A stretch of DNA of 59,375 nucleotides, from positions 1-59,375 of IMG/VR virus record IMGVR_UViG_3300025921_000017; one strand, given 5' to 3'. Shown in pieces: positions 23,651-49,914 of the stretch. Below the pieces are notes generated by a model that ran no database searches, had not been told where the DNA came from, and saw only the letters and a list, made by a program, of their open reading frames with translations. How positions within the stretch are numbered: position 1 is the stretch's first letter; the number at the start of each line of letters is the position of its first letter. Origin of the DNA: a virus. The translations under genes were made by a program, and so were the position numbers.

Positions 23651-24355
23651 CTAACGCGCACCTCCCTGCAATGCTGCGATCTTGCTGAACAGATCGTCAC
23701 TGATCATCGCAGCCGGAACGCCTGCCGCCTTGAGTGCGTTGAAGTCGGTGTCCGAAACAAACGCAGCTCCCTTCGGCAGTACGAGCATTCCGACCTTGGT
23801 CTTTGCACTTTGCACGAGCATTGGTCCTTCTCCTTCGATCATCTTTGAGATTGAATTCGGATGCGTTGCAGGTACTGGCGCCTGAAACGCAGAGGCAAGG
23901 TTCCAGGGTGTCATGTCGTCATACTCGGCGGGTAGACTACCGCACGAGACGTGAATGTGACCAGTGTGTGGATCACTGCCGGTATAAGCAACCCACTGAG
24001 CCCAAGGCTCCCAGGTTGTGATGTGATGGTCGAAGATCACATACCCAGTAGAGCCGAACATCTTGAAGTGCTTTGCCATCAGTGACTGGAGAAAGTTGGC
24101 CAGAGCATGAGGATCGAAGTCATTGCCTGTGACGTCGATGTCCCAAGCTCTGACTACACCTGCTGCGTTCGGATTGTGGTCAGAAGCACTTCCTTGCGCC
24201 TGATGAGCAGGATCACTTTCAGTTCCCTCTTGGGCTCCCTGGCTTCTGTTTGGGAAGAGTGTGTTGAGCTCACTCATTCCCTGCAGGATACAGTGGGCGA
24301 GTCGTGGATTGCCCGTCGCTGGATGCCAAGCCTTTTCGATATCGAGACCACTCAT
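23651..24355 (-). CDS. endolysin, M15-type peptidase
   Basis: A 234-residue cell-wall hydrolase. Zinc ligands of the M15/VanY-like fold: SDHNPN with His60, AWDIDV with Asp72, and TGHIHVS with His133/His135. It would cut peptide bonds of peptidoglycan. Residues 168-234 (LVQSAKTKVGMLVLPKGAAF) form a C-terminal domain that may bind wall or mediate oligomerisation. No signal peptide, so it depends on the holin. AGGAGAAG precedes the ATG. Confidence 0.88.
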   Translation of the reverse strand: MSGLDIEKAWHPATGNPRLAHCILQGMSELNTLFPNRSQGAQEGTESDPAHQAQGSASDHNPNAAGVVRAWDIDVTGNDFDPHALANFLQSLMAKHFKMFGSTGYVIFDHHITTWEPWAQWVAYTGSDPHTGHIHVSCGSLPAEYDDMTPWNLASAFQAPVPATHPNSISKMIEGEGPMLVQSAKTKVGMLVLPKGAAFVSDTDFNALKAAGVPAAMISDDLFSKIAALQGGAR

Positions 24356-26006: not shown

Positions 26007-26036
26007 TATCTAGTCCTACCTACGGTCCAGGTACAA
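26007..26036 (-). promoter_or_regulatory. candidate promoter for lysis genes
   Basis: On the minus strand TTGTAC (26036-26031) and TAGATA (26012-26007) are 18 bases apart, overlapping the end of the tail-tip gene and upstream of the lysis cassette. Plausible but unsupported by anything except spacing. The rest of the gap (25863-26019) also holds a TATAAT on the opposite strand. Confidence 0.35.
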
Positions 26037-26322
26037 TTCCACCTTTTAGCACATGCGTGATGAACAGATCAGAGTCTGGACCTTCAATTCTGACATAACT
26101 ACCGACAGTCGGAGTCATCCAGGGTGAACAGGGAATCGCAATCGAGTTCGTGTCTCTACCTATCTGTACTAATACTTTCTGTGTAGTTGGATTGACCGCT
26201 CCAGTCACTGTTCCGTAGCGAGGGAGTGGTCTCAACTTTCTGAGCTGACGGTCGATGATCTTTGTGATAATCTGATGAAGTCTGACCGCAGTGTTGAAAT
26301 CGTTTAAGTTTGCTGGCATCAC
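26020..26322 (-). CDS. small tail-tip protein, OB-fold-like
   Basis: A 100-residue protein. Residues 36-95 (RYGTVTGAVNPTTQKVLVQI, then IAIPCSPWMTPTVGSYVRIEG) have the strand pattern of the OB barrel found in gp5-like tail hub and baseplate proteins. It directly follows the gp27-like hub gene and would sit at the tail tip. Start is GTG 26322 or ATG 26319. Confidence 0.7.
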   Translation of the reverse strand: MMPANLNDFNTAVRLHQIITKIIDRQLRKLRPLPRYGTVTGAVNPTTQKVLVQIGRDTNSIAIPCSPWMTPTVGSYVRIEGPDSDLFITHVLKGGIVPGP

Positions 26323-28059
26323 TCAGCCCACAATCGAAACTCGTTTAGCATTGCCCGTCTGGGGAGCCAGTGCTAACGGAATATTGAAGTTAGTCAAGAG
26401 GTACCTAGCTGGATCACTGCTGTTAAAGGTGTCTACGTACTGAGTTATCTCGCCTGCCTCAAGCCAAGGAAACACGCGAGAACTGTAGTTGAGGTCATAC
26501 GATTCAAGAGCGGAAACCTTTAGTATGCTCAACGCCCAAGCGGCGCACTGTGCATCGGAGGTAAACGTCGGCATGTCAATAAAGTCTGATCGTTCTCCTA
26601 GTCGTTCGATTCGCGTCGGAGACGACGGCTCGTGATTCTCGGCTATTCCTTCGTAGGTCAACCCTTGCACCGAGTTTGACGCGGATGCGCCAGTACAGAC
26701 AATCCGGTTAAACAGGCGACTGTCTTCCGATGTCTTTTCCATACTGACAATATTCGCCTCGATACCGCCGAGGTTAAGATAGAGACTAATCGGCGAAGTT
26801 GCAGGATCAAGGAAGGCGCGAGTAACAATAAAGCCGAACGGGTCAAAGAATACTTCCTGATTAACGGATGCACAGATGGCAACGATAGCTGTCATGCGAT
26901 CTGAGCCTCGCCCGAAGGTTAGATCGCCAGGCAAAACAGCTCCATCACCTGCGAGCTTGCATTTATAGACGCCACCATTTGCAGCCTCTGCCTGAACAAG
27001 CAGATCAACACTTGTACCGACCACAAAGGTAACAGTCTGGTCGAACTTGCTCAGACTCAACAGCTTGGCATAATCCCTGCCTGAGATCTTGATCTCGTGT
27101 GGAAATCTCGGCTCGCTAATCTTGTCGATGCAGAACTCGCCGACCTGTGTTTCGTATTGCTCAGTTGCACCGTAGCTATATAGCCAGCTGATAAACGCTT
27201 GAAACAAGATGAGAAACAATCCGACATTACTCTGAGGAGTGAAGTTTAGGTTAATCTGCGGATGGTAGTGCAGCCACTGACCACCGCTTGAATTCTGAGC
27301 CACGAGGATAGACGGTGACTGACTGCTTGCAAAAGTCGTAGTGCCGACTACGCGAACCCCAGGAGCAACGGTCGAGATTATAGTCTCGCCGTTGGTAGCA
27401 GAGGTGTTAAAGCTAGCGAACTTAGATTGAAACAAGTTGTCATAGATCGGTGGATTAACGTCCCAGGCAGTCGATAGGCCTCGTATTGCAGTTGTAGCGA
27501 TCAGTGGAACACTTGCGCTTGTGGCAAAGTTGCAGACGCTAAGTACGTTCCCACTTGCGTTATAGACCCCAGACAGTAACGCTGCAACAGAAGCTGACAA
27601 GTCAGAGTCTTTTGAATAACCGACGACTATGTCGAACCCAAGTAAATCTCCAACTTGCAACGAAGCAGTATCTGGAAAAAAGGTAAAATCGGTTAGACCG
27701 ATACGTCTGAATGCATTTACAATTACATCAGAACCGGAACTACTAAGACCGAGTAGCGCGAGTGATGGACTACGCTTAAGATTCTGATATTTAACGCCTC
27801 TGTACACCTTGATTATCTTGTCATACCAAAGACCATTCACAGGATCATGGATGATCAGTCCTTCTGTATTGTCCAGAGTTAGATCAAAGTTCCGCCGATC
27901 TACACGAGTGTAATCCACCGTAACCGTACCATCTTTGACCTTTGGCCCCAATACGTACGGCGTAACACCATCAGCTTCATAAAGCTCGGCCCGGCGTGTT
28001 ACAGAGGTATTACCAGAAAGAATCGCATTGATAACCGAGGTCGAGACAAAACTTCCCAC
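26323..28059 (-). CDS. tail hub / minor tail protein with inserted domain
   Basis: A 578-residue protein, GTG start overlapping the upstream stop (TAGTG). Residues 1-92 and 300-578 resemble gp27-like tail hub proteins (VTVDYTRVDRRNFDLTLDN ... HEIKISGRDYAKLLSLSKFD), with ALSILKVSALESYDLNYSS near the end. Residues about 93-300 interrupt this fold with a Rossmann-like domain (NAFRRIGLTDFTFF, DLLGFDIVVGY, NVLSVCNF), similar in pattern to class-I glutamine-amidotransferase/ThuA folds. The hub joins tail tube to tip proteins. Confidence 0.75.
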   Translation of the reverse strand: MGSFVSTSVINAILSGNTSVTRRAELYEADGVTPYVLGPKVKDGTVTVDYTRVDRRNFDLTLDNTEGLIIHDPVNGLWYDKIIKVYRGVKYQNLKRSPSLALLGLSSSGSDVIVNAFRRIGLTDFTFFPDTASLQVGDLLGFDIVVGYSKDSDLSASVAALLSGVYNASGNVLSVCNFATSASVPLIATTAIRGLSTAWDVNPPIYDNLFQSKFASFNTSATNGETIISTVAPGVRVVGTTTFASSQSPSILVAQNSSGGQWLHYHPQINLNFTPQSNVGLFLILFQAFISWLYSYGATEQYETQVGEFCIDKISEPRFPHEIKISGRDYAKLLSLSKFDQTVTFVVGTSVDLLVQAEAANGGVYKCKLAGDGAVLPGDLTFGRGSDRMTAIVAICASVNQEVFFDPFGFIVTRAFLDPATSPISLYLNLGGIEANIVSMEKTSEDSRLFNRIVCTGASASNSVQGLTYEGIAENHEPSSPTRIERLGERSDFIDMPTFTSDAQCAAWALSILKVSALESYDLNYSSRVFPWLEAGEITQYVDTFNSSDPARYLLTNFNIPLALAPQTGNAKRVSIVG

Positions 28060-31000
28060 TAGAAAGCCACCTCAATGTACGGTAGAGTCATCGTACCAAA
28101 CTCTGCCGTTACTCCAGCCATCCGATCAAAGTCATTGTTGGGAAGCTTCACATAAAACGACTGACCGAATGGAGTCTTTAAATACAACGGCCTGCCGATG
28201 TTCTTGATAGTCTGAATATCTTCGAGTTGATTTGTCGCAGTGTAGTACCCGCTCGTGTAACTCGAAGAAGCATTTGCTGCACCGGTCCAGTTAGCACCTC
28301 GAGAATTGCCATCAAAGTAGGGAGTGGTCTTTGCTTCAAGCTGTGAGCCACCTGTAATGAGACCGTACCCACCAGAGACGGTACTCTGGATTACAGTTTG
28401 AACCGTCATATGGTCAGTCAGCAGAGGCATATTGTGCAACGCCTCGTATCGAGCCCACGAGCCAGTGTTGAGATCTCCAGAACTACTCGGTTCGTAAGTG
28501 TCAACTCGATTCGCACTGATAGTCTCAGTACTGATGACAGCATTTGCACTGTTGTAGTAAGTAACCTTGGACTTTACAGTCGGAAGACTTAGCACGTTGC
28601 CAACAACAGGCTCAACTGCATACCACTCGGTATGACTGAACGTAGAGCCGGGAACACATGGCAGCCTGTCCGATGTGATCAGTTGCGAAATTGTTAGCGC
28701 ATCACCTGAACCATTTCCAAGAGCACTTGCACGCATTACGAAATTAATCAGCTCTCCGTTGGGAGCCGGCTCGTAGAAAGTGTAGTAGTCAGTTGAGATA
28801 GCACCGAATGATCCGGTGCCAGCTATAGTCCAGTTGTCTGGTTGGTTTACAAAGGTTGCGGCTTGCATTGCTGGGTTGAGGAACTGGTTAATCGAGGCTA
28901 CTAGGCCAGTTGCCTTGTCGCGCACCTCGATTGTCATTGATCCATTTACGCCGAGAATATCTCCCTCGTCCACAACGCGACCGAGACCAACAACTGTATA
29001 AGTTGCTGAATCCTGTTCGTTTGTGTACTTGTCCGCTGTAACACTGAAGATTGGTACTGAATCAAATATACCCAAAGAATCAATTAACCAATAAGATGCA
29101 GACGGGATAGACACCTGTGCGCCAGGTGCCAGTACTGATTCAATCTGATCACCTAGGACATTGACTACCTGAGTGATTGCGTATTGATAAAGTTTACCTG
29201 CCTTTACGTCGTAATCACGGTAGCCGTAAGTGAGTTGAACATCAGAAGTGCTATTGATCAGCTCCCAGAGACTATCACCTACTGCTCGCCTGTACAGGTT
29301 CCAAGCAACAAAGCGAGAGTCATAATTGAGGTTACTCCAGCCGATGAACACATAGCCGTCAGAAATGTAACGGTAGAGATAGACTCGCACAATGTCAGCT
29401 GCAGCTGGCGGCGTCCAGGAGGTCGTGAAGCCTACCGGAACACTCGAGGACGACAATCCCAGAGTATCGGTGACTGTAACTACGACTGTGTATGACTTCG
29501 CGTTGTGGATTACTCCAGTTGGGAGGGTGTGCGACAGTGCGGTACCTGATACCAAGGCGTAATAGACAGACTGTCCAGTGACACCATCGTAGATCTGTAC
29601 AGCGTAACTGGCCTGAGACTTACTGCCTCCGATGCCATTGGTAAACGTGATGACTGGAATTCCAGTAGTAAAGACCTGGGCAGGAGTTGGCGACGTAACC
29701 GTGACTACGGGCGGATCAGATACATAGAATACCTGCCATCCCGAGAACGCTCCAGCTACACCATCCTTATCCCAAAGCATAACGCGCCACTGCAACTGAA
29801 CGTCTTTGTATGTCGATGAGACCGCAACATTCACCGACCCACTAGAAGATGTAACCTTACCCGAATCGTAGACGCTAGCACCTGCGGTCGTCTGAATCTG
29901 TGCCTGAAACGCTGACTGGTGGTCGTTAATGTAGGGATCAGTAAAGGCCCAGGCTAGCGTAACCGTTCCGGCACCATAGGAAAGTATCTGTCCACCCGTA
30001 GGATGAAGGTTTGCGCCAGACGGTGGATGAGAAACTGTAAAACTCGTTACCGCAGAGACAACACTGAACCTTTGCCACTCGTCATAGGTGTAAGCACCGA
30101 TGTACCAAACACCCTGGGTTAATTCCAGGGACAGGTCTGTCGGTGAGTAAAGGTCTGATACCTTAAGCCCGTGCGCCACATCGGTAAACTGTGGGGTGTA
30201 GAGATTCGGACTTAAGATAGACTTTCGACTTGTTGTTAGGCCAGCGTCTTTTGCGATGTAGTAGAACTGTTGCACAACGCCTGACGGAGTCGAGTAAGGA
30301 AGTTTGAAATCTGCCCCCACTGACGGGAGCGCAGTTTGGACAGTCGCTCCAGACGACGGAATGACATTAGCAGGCGCGTTAGGCAGACTCGGAAACACGC
30401 AACGAGCCTGATAGACGTGTGCGTAATAATGAATCAGGAAGTTGATCTGAGCTCTGTTGAAGTTGCGGTTATTGCCCCCGGAAACACAGCCGACAGCGTT
30501 GGCTGTTAGCGAAATGCCCTGATCTAGAGTGAGCGCATTCGCACGAAACACTCCAGTCTTTGTCTGCGCCGTTACATTAAAGCAGTTCGTATCTGCTTGC
30601 GTAAAGGCATAGGTCATCGCACAGTAAGTGTTATCGACATACTGCATTGTTGCAGTGATGTACCCATTGACACCTGGAGCATCTGGAACGTAACCACTAA
30701 GTGCGGTAGTCGCTAAACTACTCTGGTATGTAACTGCTCCCGCTGAAGTAATGTTCATTCTGCGATAGCCGTACACTGCTCCCGTGCCAGCAGTTATTAC
30801 GCCATAGACAAGCTCCTTTGAGCCATCAGCACAAAAGAGCATGTACTTACGATACTGCTTTCCTGACAATGGTATAGCACTGTCAGTTAGGAAATTGATC
30901 TCAGCGCCAGTATTCGTATTGACTTGGCCAACCCAGAGGTAGTCACCACTATCTACACCGGAAGCTGGTTGCGCCGAAGCGATCATCATCCAGCTGCCCT

Positions 31001-31643
31001 TATTGGATGAAACTGTCTCGTGAGTAGCCGTGATTGTAATATCATCAGAATACGCCTTGGCATTCACGCCCGACAGTATCTGAATTGACTTGGTGTAGAG
31101 AACCGTGCCAGTAGTTGAAAGAAGAAATGCATACGCCTTTGCGCCGAGAGCAGCCCCTGTGCCAATCGTCGACTGTGTATAGACTGCGATGATAGGCTGA
31201 GTCGTAGAAAAGCAGTCGATATCTACTCTAGATGCTACAAAGTTAGAAGCTGACGTGTAAACAGTTACCGCAGCTCCAAGTGTGAATGCTCCAGCGCTAT
31301 AGGTAGCCTTAACCCATTTTACCGCAGCGCCGCCGTCAATCCAGACGATGTGAACACTATCGGCAGAATCAACAACAGACGAATAACCAAGGATACTGCT
31401 AGCAGATGTGATCGTGGTAGCGAGAGTTGCCTTCAATGTCCAAGTTGTGGCGTCAGGAGAGCTATAGATATAAAGTTTCTGAGTGTTCGAGTTGTCCCCA
31501 GCTGCCCCAGAAACTCCAGACCTGTTGGCGTCCGCTACCACCATTACCAGTGTTCCATCTGACAGTCGATGAGAAGCACGCTTTCCTACTGGTCCGCCTA
31601 GACCAGCCGGGCCACCGAGAAACCGTACGAGCGTGTTTGCCAT
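28059..31643 (-). CDS. large minor tail protein with beta-propeller-like and FN3-like domains
   Basis: A 1194-residue structural protein. Residues 1-400 have repeating strands with SDGTLVMVVAD and DSVHIVWIDG patterns, as in a beta-propeller; about 440-850 contain several FN3/Ig-like domains (for example VTVTSPTPAQVFTTGIPVIT, SYTVVVTVTDTLGL); 850-1194 is another beta-rich part ending in YLKTPFGQSFYVKLP. Such proteins extend from the tail tip and contact the host surface. ATG follows the tape-measure stop directly. Confidence 0.8.
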   Translation of the reverse strand: MANTLVRFLGGPAGLGGPVGKRASHRLSDGTLVMVVADANRSGVSGAAGDNSNTQKLYIYSSPDATTWTLKATLATTITSASSILGYSSVVDSADSVHIVWIDGGAAVKWVKATYSAGAFTLGAAVTVYTSASNFVASRVDIDCFSTTQPIIAVYTQSTIGTGAALGAKAYAFLLSTTGTVLYTKSIQILSGVNAKAYSDDITITATHETVSSNKGSWMMIASAQPASGVDSGDYLWVGQVNTNTGAEINFLTDSAIPLSGKQYRKYMLFCADGSKELVYGVITAGTGAVYGYRRMNITSAGAVTYQSSLATTALSGYVPDAPGVNGYITATMQYVDNTYCAMTYAFTQADTNCFNVTAQTKTGVFRANALTLDQGISLTANAVGCVSGGNNRNFNRAQINFLIHYYAHVYQARCVFPSLPNAPANVIPSSGATVQTALPSVGADFKLPYSTPSGVVQQFYYIAKDAGLTTSRKSILSPNLYTPQFTDVAHGLKVSDLYSPTDLSLELTQGVWYIGAYTYDEWQRFSVVSAVTSFTVSHPPSGANLHPTGGQILSYGAGTVTLAWAFTDPYINDHQSAFQAQIQTTAGASVYDSGKVTSSSGSVNVAVSSTYKDVQLQWRVMLWDKDGVAGAFSGWQVFYVSDPPVVTVTSPTPAQVFTTGIPVITFTNGIGGSKSQASYAVQIYDGVTGQSVYYALVSGTALSHTLPTGVIHNAKSYTVVVTVTDTLGLSSSSVPVGFTTSWTPPAAADIVRVYLYRYISDGYVFIGWSNLNYDSRFVAWNLYRRAVGDSLWELINSTSDVQLTYGYRDYDVKAGKLYQYAITQVVNVLGDQIESVLAPGAQVSIPSASYWLIDSLGIFDSVPIFSVTADKYTNEQDSATYTVVGLGRVVDEGDILGVNGSMTIEVRDKATGLVASINQFLNPAMQAATFVNQPDNWTIAGTGSFGAISTDYYTFYEPAPNGELINFVMRASALGNGSGDALTISQLITSDRLPCVPGSTFSHTEWYAVEPVVGNVLSLPTVKSKVTYYNSANAVISTETISANRVDTYEPSSSGDLNTGSWARYEALHNMPLLTDHMTVQTVIQSTVSGGYGLITGGSQLEAKTTPYFDGNSRGANWTGAANASSSYTSGYYTATNQLEDIQTIKNIGRPLYLKTPFGQSFYVKLPNNDFDRMAGVTAEFGTMTLPYIEVAF

Positions 31644-34600
31644 CTATCGACTTCCGTTCGCAAGTGCTTCGAGGGCGTCAATCAACTCTTGTGCATCAGC
31701 ACCAGACGTTATATTAGGTAACACCAGTTTGTCAACATGTAAAGTTGTTGACTTGCCCTCACTGGAAGCTGACGTAGTAGGTGGAGAAACCGGCGGCGGC
31801 GGCGGTGGAGGAGGAGGAACTGTAGGTGCAGGCATTTTTCCTGCAAACGAAGTAATCGAGGGCAAAGTTCCGATAGCCGGAAGGACCGGGGTAGCAAACT
31901 TGTATGCACTGATTGCATTCGAGATATCCTTCATCTGGTTAAGGATAAAGGGCTTCTCGTTGATAAAGCCTACTCCGATACCTTGAGCAAGAGGGCCACC
32001 GATCTCTTTCGCCATTAGCTTCGACGGCGAAGCGATTCCAAAGAACTTCTTGATTGGGCTAGGCAAATGGGATGCAAGTCCCGAAATACTGTCAACTACC
32101 GTGTGCCAAGAGTCTTCAATTCCTCGCTTGATGCCACCAACGAGATCGCCGCCTACGCTGTAAAGCAGGTTTCCAAGATTTCCTAGAGATGTCACGATAC
32201 TATGGGGGAGTCCAGTCACCCAGCTGAGAAGTATCTGCCAGTGAGTCCTGAAAGCATTGAGTGCTGTATCAATACCATTAGCTGCCCAGTTAGCCAACTT
32301 TCCTGCAAGGCTAGAAGCAGCCTGGATAAGTGCAACCGGGATACCAGTTGCCCAGCTAAGGATTAACTGCCAGTGCGTCTTGAAGGCATTAAGTGCAGAG
32401 TCAAATGCCCCTGCCGCCCAGCTGGCTAGTTTGCCACCAAGGCCTGCCAACTTGGCTATCAGTGTTACAGGCAAGCCTACAGTCCATGCAAGTATCGTAG
32501 CCCAGTGAGCCTTCATGTTATTGTAAACAAGGTCGAAGGCGTTAGCAAATAGATTGACCAGTAGCTTGCCTAAATTCTCAAGGGCCTTTAGCAGCTTTTC
32601 AGGCAGACCACCAAACCAATCTACAATAGAGTTGATCAAGTCAGGAATGATGGAGTGTCCGACAAGAACATCGTAGAGCCACTTGAAGAAGTCTACAATA
32701 CCAGTTACGAATCCCTTGACGATACCCCAGACTAACTTGCCGGCACCCTCGATGATATGACCAATCAACGAGAAGGTTGCCTCTACGAAATCAACCGCGT
32801 CATGCCAGGCTGCTGCCCAGTCGCCATTAATAATGTCAGTGACAAAGTTCACAACATCAGTAATGATCCGAATAACATCACCGAGAACTGCGATAATGGT
32901 GTGAAGTGCTGTTCCAAGAACATTAACGAAGATATCCGCAGCTATTTTCAAAGCTGCGACAAGCACGATCCCAACTATCTCGGCAAGCAACTTAACTGCG
33001 GGCCACAGCGTCTGTAGCAGATGCCCAAGCGACTGCAGTAACGGTAGAATCTTTGGCCCAATATCATTTCCGATCTGCATAAACGCATCACGCAGATCAT
33101 GCCAAAACTTAACCACATCAGGCTTAAAGAGTGCCCAGAGCATACTCAACTGTCGCCACAACGGCTCGAGCCACTTGTTTGCTGCTTCGAAACCTCGAAC
33201 CAGTCCGTCCCAAGCACTAGAAGCTGCTCCGGACACTGTGCCGCTACCCGTAACCTGTCGCCACAACTTAGAAACACCAGGCGTTACAGTACCTGTCCAC
33301 CACCCCGTGAACTCATCCCACTTCTTCTTTATCCCACCGAACGGATTAAGCTTGCCAAGAGCGTTCTGTAGATTTTCCTGCGCCTGCTTGGTAAGTGCGT
33401 CAATACCTGCAATATCACCAGCCTTGCCTCCGGCGATATCACCAGTACCGATAGCAGATGGGAAATTACCCCCGGCAGCGGCGGCGAAGTTCTTATCAAG
33501 GTTACTGCCCGCCTTGCCAGCCTTGGCTGCGGCAGCTGCAGCCTGGTTAATGTTGTTCGCAGATGAGGTTAACTTCTGCAACTCGGCGTTTACATCACTA
33601 ATCGCCTGTCCGACATCTTGATAAGCCTTCTTAAGCTGGTCTAGCTTGGCGTTCTCGGTGTCATAAGTTGCCTGCAGTGCATCACGCTTAGCGGTGATAG
33701 ACTTGATAACTTCTTCTTGCTCCTTGACCGCAGCGGTTGCTGCGTCATACTGACTTGTGTACTGATCCAAGGCTGCCTTGGAATCAGTTACACCCTTAAG
33801 AATCTGATCGAACGGCAACTCCTTCATCGCTGTCGCAGCATCGTTGATCTGCTTCGTTAGCGGATCATAAGTCAGACTATCCTGTAATTGCAACTCTTGA
33901 GTCTTGCGCTGAGCGTCAGTCAGCTGCTGATTTAACTGGTCGTATTGAGCAACCTGATTCTTTGTATCATCGTACTGCTTTTGCATAGCAGTCACTTGCT
34001 GATCATAGACACCAGTAATATCAGCCGAAGCGCCGGCCTCACGGAGAGCCTTAGATGTCCCTCTCAAGGCGTCCATCGAGCCCTGCAGTGCCTGCATGCG
34101 GGACTGAACATCTTGCATTGGCCCAGTAACATCTTCAATCTTCATCATCTGCAGCTGAAGGTCTTTCTCCTTCATCTGAGATTCGAAGATCGCATCCGAC
34201 ATAGCCTTCTGTCCGATGATACCATAGCTCTGGTACTTCTGAAGATCCGACTGTGCCTGGCTCATTCCCTCCTGTGCAGCAGACTGAGTTTCCTGCAACT
34301 GGGCCAAAATTGCATTCTGAGCAGCTAACTGCTGATTATAAGCCTTGATGCCGGAGTCTAGCTTATCAACGATCGCCTGCTGCTGCTTCATTGCAGCATT
34401 GAGTGCAGCCTGGCGCGCAGTCAATGCTGCGACATCTGCTGTTTCGGTTAGATAAGCATTTACCGCACCAGTACCGCCTCCGGCTTTCCGAATATTTGCG
34501 ACGTCTGCATTTACCGTAATGGTATTCGAGTGTCCTTCAAGTGCGGCTACCGCAGAACCAAAGCGCTTGATGTCATTGTACGCCTTGTCAATTGGCCCAG

Positions 34601-37163
34601 AGACATCTTCTAGCAGCGCAAACTGTGCCATGACAGCTTGCATACCAGTTGTTACGTTTTCTACCAGCGAAGGAGAGTGATGCGCCCAGGGGTTGAGGTA
34701 GCTGAACAAACTGTAAACAGCCTCAGCGGCAGACTTGACGATATTCACCACAGCCATAAGGGCGCTTTGGACACCCTGTGGCAAAGCATCGAATCCCTTA
34801 ATAACAAGACTGATTGCGTCATAAAAGACATTGACCAAAGGAGCTAACGCACCTGCAACGGCATTTGAGCCTGACTGGAACCAGTGAACGACTGAGTCCC
34901 AGCCTTCTTCGATCTGCTTACGGAATAGTGCGACTGCTAACAAGACAGCGGCAATAGCTATCCCGATCGGGCCTGTAAGTGCGGCTAGGATAGCCCGCCC
35001 GCCCGTCAGGATGGCCGGTGCAATGCCGCTTATTACCCGTAGCAACATTCCGGGGAGCCCAACTAAAAGCCCCACGATTTTACCCGGTAGGCCAATAAAG
35101 AATCCGAGTATAAGTGCCGGAATTCGTGCCAAACCACTCAATAGCCCGCCACTAGCTGCAGCTGCACCGGCTGCTGTTTCACCTTCAATGGCTAGCATGC
35201 CAGCTCGAGTTGCACTGACCTGAGCTAAGAACCCTTCGTTTATGATTACAGTATTGCGAAGTTGTGCTGCTGCAAATTCAGCATTCCAAAGAACTAATCC
35301 AGTTTCAGTTTCTCCTAGCAGAGCTGCCATGCCTGTAGCTGCCTCGGCATTTATCGTACCCATACCGGCTACAGTCTCATTAAAGATGAATCCCATAGTT
35401 GCAGTCCAGATTGCAACTATGGAAGCACCGCCTGTTGTGAAGGTAGCGACTACAAGATCTAGCCCAGCTGCTACTGCAGTATCAGTTGCTGCCATGCCAA
35501 CAGTTGCCTCCTCGGCAACTGTTCCGAACCCAGCGGAAGCTATGGATCGCAGAATAAGAAACATCTGCGCAAACTGTTCTCTGATCACATTTATAAGTTC
35601 AAACAAGTTTGCTGCGATGATCTCAGTGTTAGCCGAGATACTAGCAGTCATCTCGGCTACCGAGGCACCAACCTGAACCGCGCCAGTCGTAGCCTGTCGT
35701 CCGCTGAAAGTGAACAGTGCTCCTATAGCACCAATGAGCGCCATAGCGCCACGAGCGGGAGCAAGGATTAGACTCAATGCAGCCGGAATGAGCCCTAATG
35801 GCTTCAGGAAGAAGAAGAGTGCGTCACCGCCAAAACGTGCGACATCTCGCAGAGCGGAAAGGTACAGAAGTACTGGCCCAAGTGCCGCCATCAGCAACAG
35901 GAAGATTCCAACGGCCTTCTGGACGTTGGGGTTGAGATTACTGAACCAGGTTACAAGACTATTTACAGCTGCTACGATGCTGATTATAACAGGCAGCAAC
36001 TTGACGAGAATATCGGCAAGGTTGTTCTTCATCATATCCCCGAGAATCTGCAACTTCTTCGGGTTAGAATCAAGAACAGTCTGAAGCTCTTTTTGGGCAA
36101 CCTCAGCATTAACAGTCGGGTCGATGGTCGCAGCCATCGCCTTACCATACCGGCTTTGCGCAGCTGTCGTCTTGTCAAGACTTAATGCAATATCTCGAAG
36201 AAGGACATCGAATCGACTGACCTGGAACGCGCCAGACAACTGTCGTGCGATGACATTCTTCTGGGCATCACTCAGATTTTCGAAGGCCTTTGCGACTTCC
36301 TTCAACTTGTCAGTAGCAGTAGCAGACTTCCATCCGGTATCTGCAATGTTTATACCGACAAGCTTTAGCGCCTCGGACGCAGCATGTGATGGAGCTTCAA
36401 GATTAGAGATAATCGTCTTGAGGCTGTTACCAGCCTGCGCTGCCGTACCAGCGTAAGGAGTGATCGCAGCAAGTAAAGCGGCAAGCTCTCTATAGGTTAC
36501 TCCACCATTCGCAGCTGCACCAGCAGCACGCTGGAAACCTGTTATGAGCCCTTCCATACTGATTGCAGTTGTATTCTCTACGACGTTGAGGTCATTGAGA
36601 ATCTTTGTCAGATCTGACGCACTTGCTCCGTATTGCCCCTGAATTGAAATAAGTGCTTCGGTTGCCTGTGCAGAGTTGATATCACCAATGACCATAGTCT
36701 TTAGTGTGTTGTCAACAGAACGCGCTAGCGCTGCACCTTGAACTCCAGCCGCTGCCCAAGCGGCACCAATCTTGATTACCTCAGTCTGGTTTACGCCATA
36801 TTCGTTACTTAAAGCCTCGAAGTTCTTTCCGAGCGCGGCAACATCTTTGCTGTAATCAGCTAGAGGGTTAGTACCGTAAACCTTCTTGAGGTCGGCCATT
36901 GCAGTTTCGTTAGCCAGACTAAAACTAAGCAGAGAACGACCCGCGAGTAACAGTGGTGCTGTAAATGTCGCACTCAGCGCGTAACCAGCAGAGCGGATAC
37001 TCCCAGTGAGTCGATCAACACCTGCAACACTTGTAGCAGTATTGAATCCAGCGCCTCCGCGCATAGCAGAGTTTAGGCCGGTTATCTCTCCGCGCAGCGA
37101 GGCGAGTGCCGCCTCGGCCTGAGCCTTTGCTACCCTGATCGTAATGTTTAGGTAGCTTTCCAA
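31644..37163 (-). CDS. tape measure protein
   Basis: A 1839-residue protein, the longest in the window, that sets tail length. The N-terminal 350 residues match the phage tail tape-measure core (NETAMADLKKVYG, AAGVQGAALARSVD, YGASASDLTKILNDLNVVE, RQLSGAFQVSRFD). Then come several hydrophobic segments (about 380-470 and 690-760), a central coiled-coil region (950-1190), three 44-residue repeats near 1539-1670, and a Pro-9 run near the end. TTG start, supported by AAAGGTGG just upstream. By rough rule, this length predicts a tail around a quarter of a micrometre. Confidence 0.95.
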   Translation of the reverse strand: MESYLNITIRVAKAQAEAALASLRGEITGLNSAMRGGAGFNTATSVAGVDRLTGSIRSAGYALSATFTAPLLLAGRSLLSFSLANETAMADLKKVYGTNPLADYSKDVAALGKNFEALSNEYGVNQTEVIKIGAAWAAAGVQGAALARSVDNTLKTMVIGDINSAQATEALISIQGQYGASASDLTKILNDLNVVENTTAISMEGLITGFQRAAGAAANGGVTYRELAALLAAITPYAGTAAQAGNSLKTIISNLEAPSHAASEALKLVGINIADTGWKSATATDKLKEVAKAFENLSDAQKNVIARQLSGAFQVSRFDVLLRDIALSLDKTTAAQSRYGKAMAATIDPTVNAEVAQKELQTVLDSNPKKLQILGDMMKNNLADILVKLLPVIISIVAAVNSLVTWFSNLNPNVQKAVGIFLLLMAALGPVLLYLSALRDVARFGGDALFFFLKPLGLIPAALSLILAPARGAMALIGAIGALFTFSGRQATTGAVQVGASVAEMTASISANTEIIAANLFELINVIREQFAQMFLILRSIASAGFGTVAEEATVGMAATDTAVAAGLDLVVATFTTGGASIVAIWTATMGFIFNETVAGMGTINAEAATGMAALLGETETGLVLWNAEFAAAQLRNTVIINEGFLAQVSATRAGMLAIEGETAAGAAAASGGLLSGLARIPALILGFFIGLPGKIVGLLVGLPGMLLRVISGIAPAILTGGRAILAALTGPIGIAIAAVLLAVALFRKQIEEGWDSVVHWFQSGSNAVAGALAPLVNVFYDAISLVIKGFDALPQGVQSALMAVVNIVKSAAEAVYSLFSYLNPWAHHSPSLVENVTTGMQAVMAQFALLEDVSGPIDKAYNDIKRFGSAVAALEGHSNTITVNADVANIRKAGGGTGAVNAYLTETADVAALTARQAALNAAMKQQQAIVDKLDSGIKAYNQQLAAQNAILAQLQETQSAAQEGMSQAQSDLQKYQSYGIIGQKAMSDAIFESQMKEKDLQLQMMKIEDVTGPMQDVQSRMQALQGSMDALRGTSKALREAGASADITGVYDQQVTAMQKQYDDTKNQVAQYDQLNQQLTDAQRKTQELQLQDSLTYDPLTKQINDAATAMKELPFDQILKGVTDSKAALDQYTSQYDAATAAVKEQEEVIKSITAKRDALQATYDTENAKLDQLKKAYQDVGQAISDVNAELQKLTSSANNINQAAAAAAKAGKAGSNLDKNFAAAAGGNFPSAIGTGDIAGGKAGDIAGIDALTKQAQENLQNALGKLNPFGGIKKKWDEFTGWWTGTVTPGVSKLWRQVTGSGTVSGAASSAWDGLVRGFEAANKWLEPLWRQLSMLWALFKPDVVKFWHDLRDAFMQIGNDIGPKILPLLQSLGHLLQTLWPAVKLLAEIVGIVLVAALKIAADIFVNVLGTALHTIIAVLGDVIRIITDVVNFVTDIINGDWAAAWHDAVDFVEATFSLIGHIIEGAGKLVWGIVKGFVTGIVDFFKWLYDVLVGHSIIPDLINSIVDWFGGLPEKLLKALENLGKLLVNLFANAFDLVYNNMKAHWATILAWTVGLPVTLIAKLAGLGGKLASWAAGAFDSALNAFKTHWQLILSWATGIPVALIQAASSLAGKLANWAANGIDTALNAFRTHWQILLSWVTGLPHSIVTSLGNLGNLLYSVGGDLVGGIKRGIEDSWHTVVDSISGLASHLPSPIKKFFGIASPSKLMAKEIGGPLAQGIGVGFINEKPFILNQMKDISNAISAYKFATPVLPAIGTLPSITSFAGKMPAPTVPPPPPPPPPVSPPTTSASSEGKSTTLHVDKLVLPNITSGADAQELIDALEALANGSR
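32154..32549 (-). repeat. three tandem 44-residue repeats in tape measure
   Basis: Three 132-base units (32418-32549, 32286-32417, 32154-32285) encode the pattern AFDxxLNAFKTHWQxILSWxxGxP...LAGKLANW. Each has a conserved HW pair, typical of tandem tail-length repeats. Confidence 0.85.
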
Positions 37164-38537: not shown

Positions 38538-39560
38538 CTAGGCAATGAGGAGCAGGTCAGTCTTGGCGACGGCCGTGATCAGCTTGGTTGCATTCGCCGG
38601 CCGCAACGCCTGGAAGCTGATATCCGTGTCGATGATGTTGTCCCCCGATGGTGCGAACGAGAACGGCAGGAACGCTACCTTCGGAAGGGTCAACGTCAGA
38701 CTGTATGACGTGGTTGGGGTTCCGCCTGGAATCGACTCGTAGGTGGTCATGGTGATCACCATTTGCTGCTTGGTGGTCAGACCGCCCGCTTGTGTAGCCG
38801 TCGAAGCTCCGTAGACCGCCTGCTTGAACAGCGCAGAATCGGCAGGACGGAACAGAAAACTCCCGGTCACGTCGCGTCGCTTGGGCACCAGGGAGCCGAC
38901 ATAGAAGCTTCCCATGCGGTAGTCGTTGTTCTCGAAGTTGTTCTTGATATCCAGCTTGTAGTTCTTGACTGGAATCGTCACTCCGTTGTACGTCAGGGTG
39001 ATGTTCGTCCCGACAGTCAGGAAGCCGTTGTCGTACAGGTTGGTCGGATCGGTCGGGGTAACTCCAGCAACCTGCTTGATGGCAATGATGTCTGCGTTAC
39101 CCATGAGGTAACCATCCGCCGAAGCCTCGAGGTGGAGGTTGTTCACGACTCCATCGGTGTAGTCGAAGGTCTCCAGACCTGCGCCAATCGACTCCTCGAT
39201 ACTGAGGAATGGTAGTGCCGCTCCGTCAGACGGAGTGATCGTCTGGGTTGTGACCCCCGTCGTCGTGGCTGGAGTACCCACCACTCCGAGGGCCGCAGCC
39301 AACAGGGTAAGGAACGAGTTGATCCTGGTATAGAAGGAATACTGCCCCTCCCAGATCGCCGGGCCGAGGTAGGCGTCAGGAATGTCTCGACTGCCTCCGA
39401 TCTCAGGCGTCGGGACCATGAGGGTACGAGAAGGTCCGAGTGAACCGCCCGTAAGCTTCATCGCCACGCCAGCAGTTGCCAGGTCTGCCGCGAGGGTTCC
39501 CTGAGCGGACTGAGTGCGGAAGATGACATGCCCCGCCTGGGACGAGTAACCGTTCGCCAT
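38538..39560 (-). CDS. major tail (tube) protein
   Basis: A 340-residue beta-rich protein that polymerises into the tail tube. Its position just before the chaperones, its size and the pattern of the strands (FSFAPSGDNIIDTDISFQAL, SLTLTLPKVAFLPF, SGSFLFRPADSALFKQAVYG) fit phage tail-tube folds. It is flanked by hairpins, in line with a separately controlled, abundant transcript. Confidence 0.85.
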   Translation of the reverse strand: MANGYSSQAGHVIFRTQSAQGTLAADLATAGVAMKLTGGSLGPSRTLMVPTPEIGGSRDIPDAYLGPAIWEGQYSFYTRINSFLTLLAAALGVVGTPATTTGVTTQTITPSDGAALPFLSIEESIGAGLETFDYTDGVVNNLHLEASADGYLMGNADIIAIKQVAGVTPTDPTNLYDNGFLTVGTNITLTYNGVTIPVKNYKLDIKNNFENNDYRMGSFYVGSLVPKRRDVTGSFLFRPADSALFKQAVYGASTATQAGGLTTKQQMVITMTTYESIPGGTPTTSYSLTLTLPKVAFLPFSFAPSGDNIIDTDISFQALRPANATKLITAVAKTDLLLIA

Positions 39561-48015: not shown

Positions 48016-49914
48016 CTAGCGCTTAGGTCGGAGATGCGGAGGTATAGCAGACCCTGCAGATCCTAGAGAAGGCGGCAAGGGAGCCTTAAGTCCGTTACCA
48101 CTCATTGCATCTAGCATGTGCTGTAGTGTGCCTGGCCTAGCATTTCCAGTCGGAGTACTCGGCCCATTATTACCTCTCTTGGTGCCCACGTCAACAGAAG
48201 TAACCCCCCGCTGAAATGAGCGATTTCCGACCAAAGTTGTGGTCACTCCAGCCAGGGCGTCGGCGACGTCCTTACTGCCGTTTGGGGGGTGATCTATCTT
48301 ACGCCCGTCATCAGTAAGCTCCATAAGCTCCTGAAGCGCTATCTCTACAATCTTGTCCGAGCCCTTGTAAAGATGTGTGACATACTTCGGAAACTCGATT
48401 CGCTCTTCGTAAATGGCCTCTCTTAAGTCTTCATACGGAAGAGTTGACTTGTCCATAGATAAGTACTCAACCTGAAAACGCCTCTTCCTAAGTTGCTGTA
48501 CCGTGTCGGTCGACTGAAAGCCATCAATAGTAATCGACTTGAGATTGAATCCAAGATCGTCCTTGAGATAGTAGATAATGCGTCGGACATCAGAGAACAT
48601 AATCTCTGTACCAGGAAGAGCCTTGAGTCGTGCCATAAAGTCAATTACAATAAGCGGCTTCTTTTCTCCGCTATCTGTAATTACCATCTCTTCGACATGG
48701 CCCATAGCAATCCCAAGACCATCACCATTCGCAGAGTATGCATTGTCAATATGTAAAGTACGACGGCGAGGGTCATTTCCACCCTTGAACCACTCTGCAA
48801 ACTCTACACGACTGGGGTTATCCGAAACAGGTGACTGGTCTCCTACGTTGTGCCGCGCATGCCAACGATCCCTGCAGGCTTCGATCTTATCCACTAGCGA
48901 GATAAACGGATCAGATACTGCAGGTGGAATTCCAGCAAGGTCTCGAAGTGCGCGCTCAGGGTTGTTCTCGAAATCCTTTCGGAACTCGTTAGGAATTTCA
49001 ATTAGATGTTCTTTGTGGTCCTCATCTAAGAGGTCAGCAACTAGTGCTGGAATGATAGACTTGCGCTTGATATCATAGAAGAAAGAATCACGAGTTCCGT
49101 CAGCCCGCAGATAGTTCTTCCAGCCGAACGACTCCCAGAGAGTCATTCGGGTGACATGGGCACCAGGATCACCAATGAACTCTGCATACTTTCCAGCAGC
49201 GAATCCATTTGCTTTCTTCATCTGGCCAATCAGGATCAAAAGCCCACGATTGCCAAATCGAGATGTAATACGAGCATGAATTGTGTTATAGCCAGACTCG
49301 GCATAATCTTTCTCTTTAGTGATCTTATGAGAATCCATCTCGTCAAGAATTCCGCCGAGAATGTTATAACCCTCGAACGTAGTCTCTGCAGAGTCGCCCG
49401 GAAGAATCCAGATATCCTTACCTGGAAATCTAATCTGCTTGGTGTACTTTTCGTCGTGAGGTGCGTTGTTCACGAACCATGGACTGTGCTTGATTCGAGC
49501 AAAAATATCACCGAAGATGACCTCGCGAGCTTGCGACTCGGAAGTTGACATCTGCATAAAAGCAATGCGCGAGCCGGGCAACAGATTGAAGAAATCCTGC
49601 GGATCTTTTAAGCACAACACCCAATGAACCATGTAAGGCAGAGCAATAGAAGCCAGTGTTGTCTTTCCGATACCGATAGCCCCAGTAAACATAGCTCTTT
49701 GCACAGAGGCTATGTTATGAGACTGTACAGTTGTTCCGAAGATCTCTTCCAGCGCGAGAGCTACCCCGTCACGTACCTTGGATGCAATCTCAAGGTACCC
49801 AGTACCGAGAAACTCTCGTATAGTGGCTGGGCGCTCATAGAAGGCTGGGTTAAGCTTTAACCACTCGAGTTCCCAGTCAACTTTTGCGGGATCGAACTCG
49901 ATTGGTACCGTCAT
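48016..49914 (-). CDS. terL: terminase large subunit
   Basis: A 632-residue packaging motor. Walker A GAIGIGKTT at 78-86, Walker B GILDEMD at 188-194 with an adjacent coupling segment (LLILIGQMKKANG), then an RNase-H-like nuclease with Asp390 (LHIDNAYS), Asp464 (ITIDGF) and a late Asp (KDVADALAG). It cuts concatemers and pumps DNA into the head. AAAAGGTGC precedes ATG. Confidence 0.93.
   Translation of the reverse strand: MTVPIEFDPAKVDWELEWLKLNPAFYERPATIREFLGTGYLEIASKVRDGVALALEEIFGTTVQSHNIASVQRAMFTGAIGIGKTTLASIALPYMVHWVLCLKDPQDFFNLLPGSRIAFMQMSTSESQAREVIFGDIFARIKHSPWFVNNAPHDEKYTKQIRFPGKDIWILPGDSAETTFEGYNILGGILDEMDSHKITKEKDYAESGYNTIHARITSRFGNRGLLILIGQMKKANGFAAGKYAEFIGDPGAHVTRMTLWESFGWKNYLRADGTRDSFFYDIKRKSIIPALVADLLDEDHKEHLIEIPNEFRKDFENNPERALRDLAGIPPAVSDPFISLVDKIEACRDRWHARHNVGDQSPVSDNPSRVEFAEWFKGGNDPRRRTLHIDNAYSANGDGLGIAMGHVEEMVITDSGEKKPLIVIDFMARLKALPGTEIMFSDVRRIIYYLKDDLGFNLKSITIDGFQSTDTVQQLRKRRFQVEYLSMDKSTLPYEDLREAIYEERIEFPKYVTHLYKGSDKIVEIALQELMELTDDGRKIDHPPNGSKDVADALAGVTTTLVGNRSFQRGVTSVDVGTKRGNNGPSTPTGNARPGTLQHMLDAMSGNGLKAPLPPSLGSAGSAIPPHLRPKR

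Follow-up and report, generated by a model that had tools for sequence, protein, structure and literature searches.

Why the hub protein at the tip of a phage tail should be interrupted within its N-terminal domain by what looks like an enzyme is the question raised by the locus described here. The window, that is the whole stretch of DNA analysed, comprises 59,375 bases of virus record IMGVR_UViG_3300025921_000017, carries siphophage genes on the minus strand and probably derives from a virus of actinobacteria. Computation established that the protein has the fold of a baseplate hub, that a domain with a fold of its own is inserted into it at a precise point, that the slot so occupied exists in several variants and has changed state repeatedly among homologs, and that no catalytic triad is conserved in the insert.

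Genomic context

The structural genes of the window were assigned as follows:
48016-49914, minus strand: large terminase, assigned by pattern
Present in the window, minus strand: capsid-side genes, assigned by pattern
38538-39560, minus strand: tail tube protein (Pfam Phage_tube_2)
31644-37163, minus strand: tape measure protein (phrog_5448)
28059-31643, minus strand: minor tail protein of 1194 aa in the Dit position, between tape measure and hub (phrog_5287, 2e-80; Pfam Ig_Rha78A_N)
26323-28059, minus strand: baseplate hub gene (gp27/gp44-like, BHP/Tal), 578 aa, GTG start (PHROG and Foldseek)
26020-26322, minus strand: protein of 100 aa adjoining the hub gene (weak matches to PHROGs of unknown function)

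The hub gene is placed after the tape measure and Dit-position genes, as it is in Gordonia phage GTE7. To judge by position and pattern, its 100-aa neighbour is probably the OB/spike-base protein that partners the hub. Decoration is apparently present on the 1194-aa Dit-position protein too: Ig_Rha78A_N matches its residues 558-640, and a CBM-like ending close to its C-terminus, YFDGNSRGANWTGAANASSS, resembles those in the hub inserts of relatives. A 234-aa protein encoded at 23651-24355 (minus strand) displays the pattern SDHNPN...AWDID...HTGHIHVS, yielded a weak PHROG match only and is probably a peptidase-type endolysin.

The hub fold

The hub protein matched phrog_1887 (PHROG 1887, tail protein) at E = 2e-82, the best stretch starting only at residue 213. 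An AlphaFold2 model of the full-length protein, built with 21 sequences, had a pLDDT of 84.3 and a pTM of 0.57 and does not fix the orientation of the insert relative to the hub trimer. When this model was submitted to Foldseek, the baseplate hubs matched were the Neisseria tail protein 3d37 (3.0e-14), 1wru (5e-12) and T4 gp27 (1k28, 5e-7), with Mu gp44 and VgrG also among them, in agreement with the gp27-like hub proposed in the first-pass annotation. The same search returned structures resembling glutamine amidotransferases (GATases), namely GH42 (5xb7, 9e-7) and SpuA (7d4r, 6.5e-6); as both sets of structures were retrieved in one search, both parts of the protein were recognised within a single model. 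On this model, residues 1-92 together with 302-578 are a baseplate hub of the gp27/gp44 type, sharing the fold of the T4 gp27, Mu gp44 and YqbQ-XkdQ hubs. We know of no GATase-like insert in the latter three. The protein is divided as follows:
27784-28059, minus strand: hub part 1, N-terminal hub domain, residues 1-92 (strands in the full-length model)
27157-27783, minus strand: inserted class-I glutamine-amidotransferase-like (ThuA/GATase1-like) domain, residues 93-301 (AlphaFold2 and Foldseek; loop empty in nine homologs)
26326-27156, minus strand: hub part 2, remainder of the gp27/gp44-like hub, residues 302-578 (full-length model and Foldseek)

Boundaries and fold of the inserted domain

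The edges of the insert are sharp. It is flanked by the conserved strands WYDKIIKV (residues 78-85) and YETQVGEF (residues 302-309), which stand 204-231 residues apart in homologs with the GATase-like domain, and in the full-length model the hub strands 82-92 and 299-315 lie on both sides of a separate alpha/beta domain. The first-pass annotation had split the hub at residues 93-300, which is correct to within one or two residues, and had proposed a comparison with hubs lacking the insert; in nine such homologs (L011, L025, L028, L029, L031, L032, L035, L037 and L038) the flanking strands are joined by 10-21 residues.

Folded alone by AlphaFold2 with 14 natural homologs, the insert gave a model of pLDDT 83.7 and pTM 0.86, in which the elements run beta-alpha-beta-alpha-beta-alpha-beta, after which come several strands in succession and, last, a long helix. 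SpuA was the best match of this model in the PDB (Foldseek, 4.4e-8), in the company of GMP synthetase amidotransferase subunits, the middle (B) domain of GH42 beta-galactosidase (5xb7), the N-terminal domain of IFT52 (5fms), the ThuA-like structures 1t0b (7.7e-6) and 4e5v (2.6e-5), and Agd3 (6nwz, 2.2e-5). There were 74 matches at E ≤ 0.001, and those listed were all class-I glutamine-amidotransferase-like. The Rossmann-like insert of class-I GATase or ThuA type that had been suggested from sequence motifs was thereby recovered from the predicted structure, and the motifs themselves, FDIVVGY at residues 142-148 and NVLSVC at 171-176, are present. Neither a continuous hub fold across the region nor an ordinary beta-sandwich insert was seen. 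In overall fold and order of elements the domain resembles ThuA (PF06283), SpuA/PuuD and GuaA, with C176 at the elbow position, but it differs from ThuA and the class-I GATases in having neither a family HMM match nor a conserved catalytic triad.

Sequence comparison returned little. The ThuA profile PF06283 and the Pfam GATase HMMs matched nothing in the window, nor any of 14 inserts at E ≤ 10, and a Pfam search of the inserts gave no convincing family. A sequence search with the insert alone found no phage match, insert patterns retrieved no relative from IMG/VR, and comparison with PDB sequences produced CheY-like matches only, at chance level. The insert alignment was too divergent for scanning a collection; a genome scan yielded two partial bacterial contigs only. 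With sequence-only searches empty, the insert is therefore detectable only through the hub or by structure. Its best viral structure matches (BFVD), compared by length only, are of 565 and 744 aa, figures that agree with the lengths of a hub bearing the GATase-like domain alone and of one bearing a nested module, respectively. In BFVD the GATase-like fold is also matched by A0A6J5R861 and A0A6J5NUZ1 from uncultured Caudovirales, with autotransporter-like and peptidoglycan-binding-like annotations, which may represent the same sort of module elsewhere in virions.

The slot in homologous hubs

The comparison covered 36 homologous hubs, the window's own included, drawn from IMG/VR and from named phages. 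The slot holds a GATase-like domain alone in 19 (including the window), a GATase-like domain with nested modules in six and a CBM-like domain instead in two; it is empty in nine, comprising eight with a linker of 10-21 residues and that of AbbeyMikolon, a distant Streptomyces phage whose hub totals 372 aa. The slot is also empty in L038, a partial homolog. The CBM-like occupants are those of L008 (Pfam CBM_4_9, 4e-8) and, by resemblance, L006. In some of the empty-slot hubs (L028, L035 and L037) the open frame runs far upstream, where L028 has SDLRW repeats and L037 has stretches rich in Gly; this suggests a decoration fused N-terminally instead of inserted.

The six hubs with nested modules are L007, L009 and those of phages Jumbo (L036), Chelms (L044), Demosthenes and PokyPuppy. 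CBM_4_9 was matched in the nested modules of L007 (1e-6) and, weakly, of Chelms and Jumbo; no Pfam match was obtained for those of L009, Demosthenes and PokyPuppy, which were classed as CBM-like by resemblance. In all six (L007, L009, L036, L044, L048 and L050) the nested module comes after one and the same motif, GWxxW/F, which stands 126-130 residues from the start of the insert. The corresponding site in the window is:
27382-27420, minus strand: loop residues 214-226 (family motif GWxxW/F), site of nested, mostly CBM-like modules in six relatives, placed by motif position

At 782 residues, the slot filling of L007 (2715-5060) consists of a GATase-like domain with several consecutive nested CBM-like modules, in a hub of 1146 aa.

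In a maximum-likelihood tree built from hub sequence with the insert removed, the presence of the GATase-like domain changes at least four times and a four-state slot character at least nine times, counts that are rough as several deep forks are unresolved. Recent changes are evident in near pairs: GMA3 is without and Jumbo with the nested module, and L025 is empty where L006 is filled by a CBM-like domain. Chance does not explain why so many divergent homologs carry a full-length domain at the very same point.

Conservation of the insert

Mean pairwise identity among 19 homologs was 22% for the insert, 46% for hub part 1 and 41% for hub part 2, and the insert fell below both hub parts in 169 of 171 pairs. 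Lower conservation than the hub is as expected of a receptor-facing part, and the faster divergence is also compatible with relaxed constraint. Despite this divergence the predicted fold, the length and the motifs GGRWFH and GWxxW are kept. The conserved columns are mostly structural in appearance (P98, G121, D143, P185 and W262), and conserved W/F columns occur at 214 and 262.

Comparison with known tail-tip proteins

Evolved Dits and Tals bear CBMs in loops; Tals have them in their gp27-like N-terminal domain (PMC7291167). For a Dit insert, a contribution to adsorption has been shown (PMC10688798). The window protein resembles the evolved Tal and Dit proteins of lactococcal, streptococcal and Lactobacillus siphophages in several respects: a module occupies a loop of a classical tail-tip ring protein, homologs exist with and without it, and CBM-type modules occur in the same slot in relatives. 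As in evolved Tals, the module sits in a loop of the gp27-like N-terminal domain and is missing from classical homologs. The window insert differs in being an alpha/beta, class-I GATase-like domain and not a beta-sandwich CBM, and in the nesting seen in some relatives.

A second precedent is Agd3 of Aspergillus, whose N-terminal domain is GATase1/ThuA-like, has no Cys-His-Glu triad, binds its polysaccharide and founded CBM87 (PMC7229062). The window insert shares that fold and the absence of the triad with Agd3 (6nwz, as above). The likeness is structural, and the Agd3 domain is part of a deacetylase and not of a virion; glycan binding, demonstrated in Agd3, would apply to the window insert by analogy. 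The CBM_4_9 matches in the relatives L008 and L007 favour, again by analogy, saccharide binding by the insert. In mycobacteriophage Douge, surface domains bind mycobacterial glycans (PMC13033339).

Domain II of the Corndog Dit, called Rossmann-like in a preprint (PMC13252515), is likewise a domain of approximately 220 aa between two conserved parts of an actinophage tail-tip ring protein, but is located in the Dit and not in the hub. It was considered as a homolog of the insert and rejected: the Firecracker equivalent is DUF7257, which has no profile similarity to the insert. In Firecracker gp56 (L054:11924-13675, equivalent to Corndog gp58) the region of the Rossmann-like domain matches Pfam DUF7257 at E = 2e-34, and its sequence is apparently beta-rich. 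Alignment of the full-length hub with the Corndogvirus hub by hhalign gave no signal.

Proposed function and alternatives

The reading favoured here, with a probability of roughly 0.62, is that the protein is an 'evolved' baseplate hub (Tal/BHP) carrying a non-catalytic, ThuA/CBM87-like insert that would bind the cell envelope. Because the slot is shared with CBM-like modules, and because Agd3 and the evolved Dits and Tals offer precedents, binding of envelope glycan is the most likely function. The first-pass annotation had named sugar binding, with action on the host surface, as an option, and this is plausible. In a trimeric gp27/gp44-like hub, a hairpin loop within the N-terminal domain would hold the insert of approximately 205 aa, which would project from the tail tip; were the hub a trimer, as is usual, each virion would have three. 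The insert would bind a cell-envelope glycan through the face that houses the active site in the enzymes, and this binding would add avidity to adsorption ahead of hub opening and DNA ejection.

Of the competing explanations the strongest, which we regard as possible though rather unlikely, is a structural or docking role of the insert, which would link hub subunits to one another or to other baseplate accessory proteins. GATase-like domains are known in scaffold roles, as in the GH42 B domain (trimerisation) and the GIFT domain of IFT52, and both 5xb7 and 5fms are among the structural matches. Douge, moreover, has an interface between the peripheral domain of the hub and the BppU-ring CBMs (PMC13033339). 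However, hubs with an empty slot manage without the insert, CBM-like domains substitute for it, and co-variation with a partner gene would be expected of a docking module.

More doubtful is a stronger role in host recognition, in which the GATase-like fold would have been turned into a genuine receptor-binding domain. Glycan held in the dead cleft would move the N-terminal domain of the hub and help to trigger opening, and the slot would be an exchangeable host-range cassette of actinophages, filled by a GATase-like domain, a CBM or a CBM nested in a GATase-like domain.

That the insert is a plug or gate closing the tail tube, like the hdII insertion of T5 pb3, is improbable. Large hub insertions do close the tube in T5 and GTA (PMC10038345), but the T5 insertion is in hdII and that of the window in the N-terminal hub domain. 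The nine homologs without the insert must close the tube otherwise, and the more than 500 further residues nested in the insert of L007 would be hard to fit in the lumen.

Still less credible is an active enzyme that would act on the host envelope as the phage enters, be it an amidohydrolase, a glutaminase or another Cys hydrolase, although the fold is that of the GATases and two segments bear on the question:
27532-27549, minus strand: NVLSVC, residues 171-176, strand and turn of the nucleophile Cys in active class-I GATases (hhalign to GuaA and PuuD)
27259-27285, minus strand: GGQWLHYHP, residues 259-267, the most conserved strand of the insert (family GGRWFH; alignment columns)

The Cys that the first-pass annotation had noted in the right region is C176; weak hhalign alignments pair it with the catalytic residue of GuaA and of PuuD, which puts it at the nucleophile position. 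H264 and H266 lie on a strand resembling that of the catalytic His. Yet across 19 inserts the Cys176 column contains Gly in 11, Ser in four and Cys, Asn, Arg and Ala in one each, the only Cys being the window's own. The His264 column contains His in 14, Asp in three and Ala in two, and two residues further on, at the Glu position of the enzymes, His (six) and Gln (five) are found among others and Glu in 0 of 19. The enzyme-like action that the first-pass annotation had envisaged as one option is not supported by these columns, which rule out a conserved glutaminase-type activity; the family profiles, too, found no match. What is left is at most a lineage-specific activity of the window copy, which is unlikely.

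A neutral passenger domain with no selected role would account for the low conservation and the absence from some lineages, but is barely tenable given a near-constant size, conserved GGRWFH and GW motifs and a fold retained in 19 proteins at about 22% mean identity.

Distribution and significance

A search of the phage collection returned 123 records at E ≤ 0.01, of which 118 had one place covering at least 80% of the query, a figure equal to the combined total of the Gordonia (105), Rhodococcus (six), Tsukamurella (six) and Nocardia (one) records. About 118 phage records thus appear to share the insert; the full sequences read were those of eleven named phages. Among the Streptomyces records, those inspected match hub part 2 only, and the one read, AbbeyMikolon, is without the insert. 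Gordonia, Rhodococcus, Tsukamurella and Nocardia have mycolic-acid envelopes. This host spread fits a role of the insert at such an envelope, but is confounded by descent.

The labels seen on the proteins of relatives were only 'tail protein', 'minor tail protein' or 'hypothetical protein'. In the tail-tip literature searched, no description of a GATase-like fold in a tail hub was found and ThuA was not mentioned together with a phage tail; the match for GATase-like with tail protein concerns a host gene. The insert is probably a surface-gripping module, of a kind not reported in that literature. Evolved Tals are already known as a type of system, of which the GATase-like decoration would be a variation.

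Tail-tip decorations are known mainly as beta-sandwich sugar-binding modules; here the decoration has the fold of a glutamine amidotransferase, at a hub position tolerant of domains of 200 to 780 residues. Natural pairs with and without a module are provided by GMA3 and Jumbo (nested module) and by L025 and L006 (empty versus CBM-filled slot). The domain hints at an adhesion module, so far unrecognised, among phages whose hosts have mycolic-acid envelopes.
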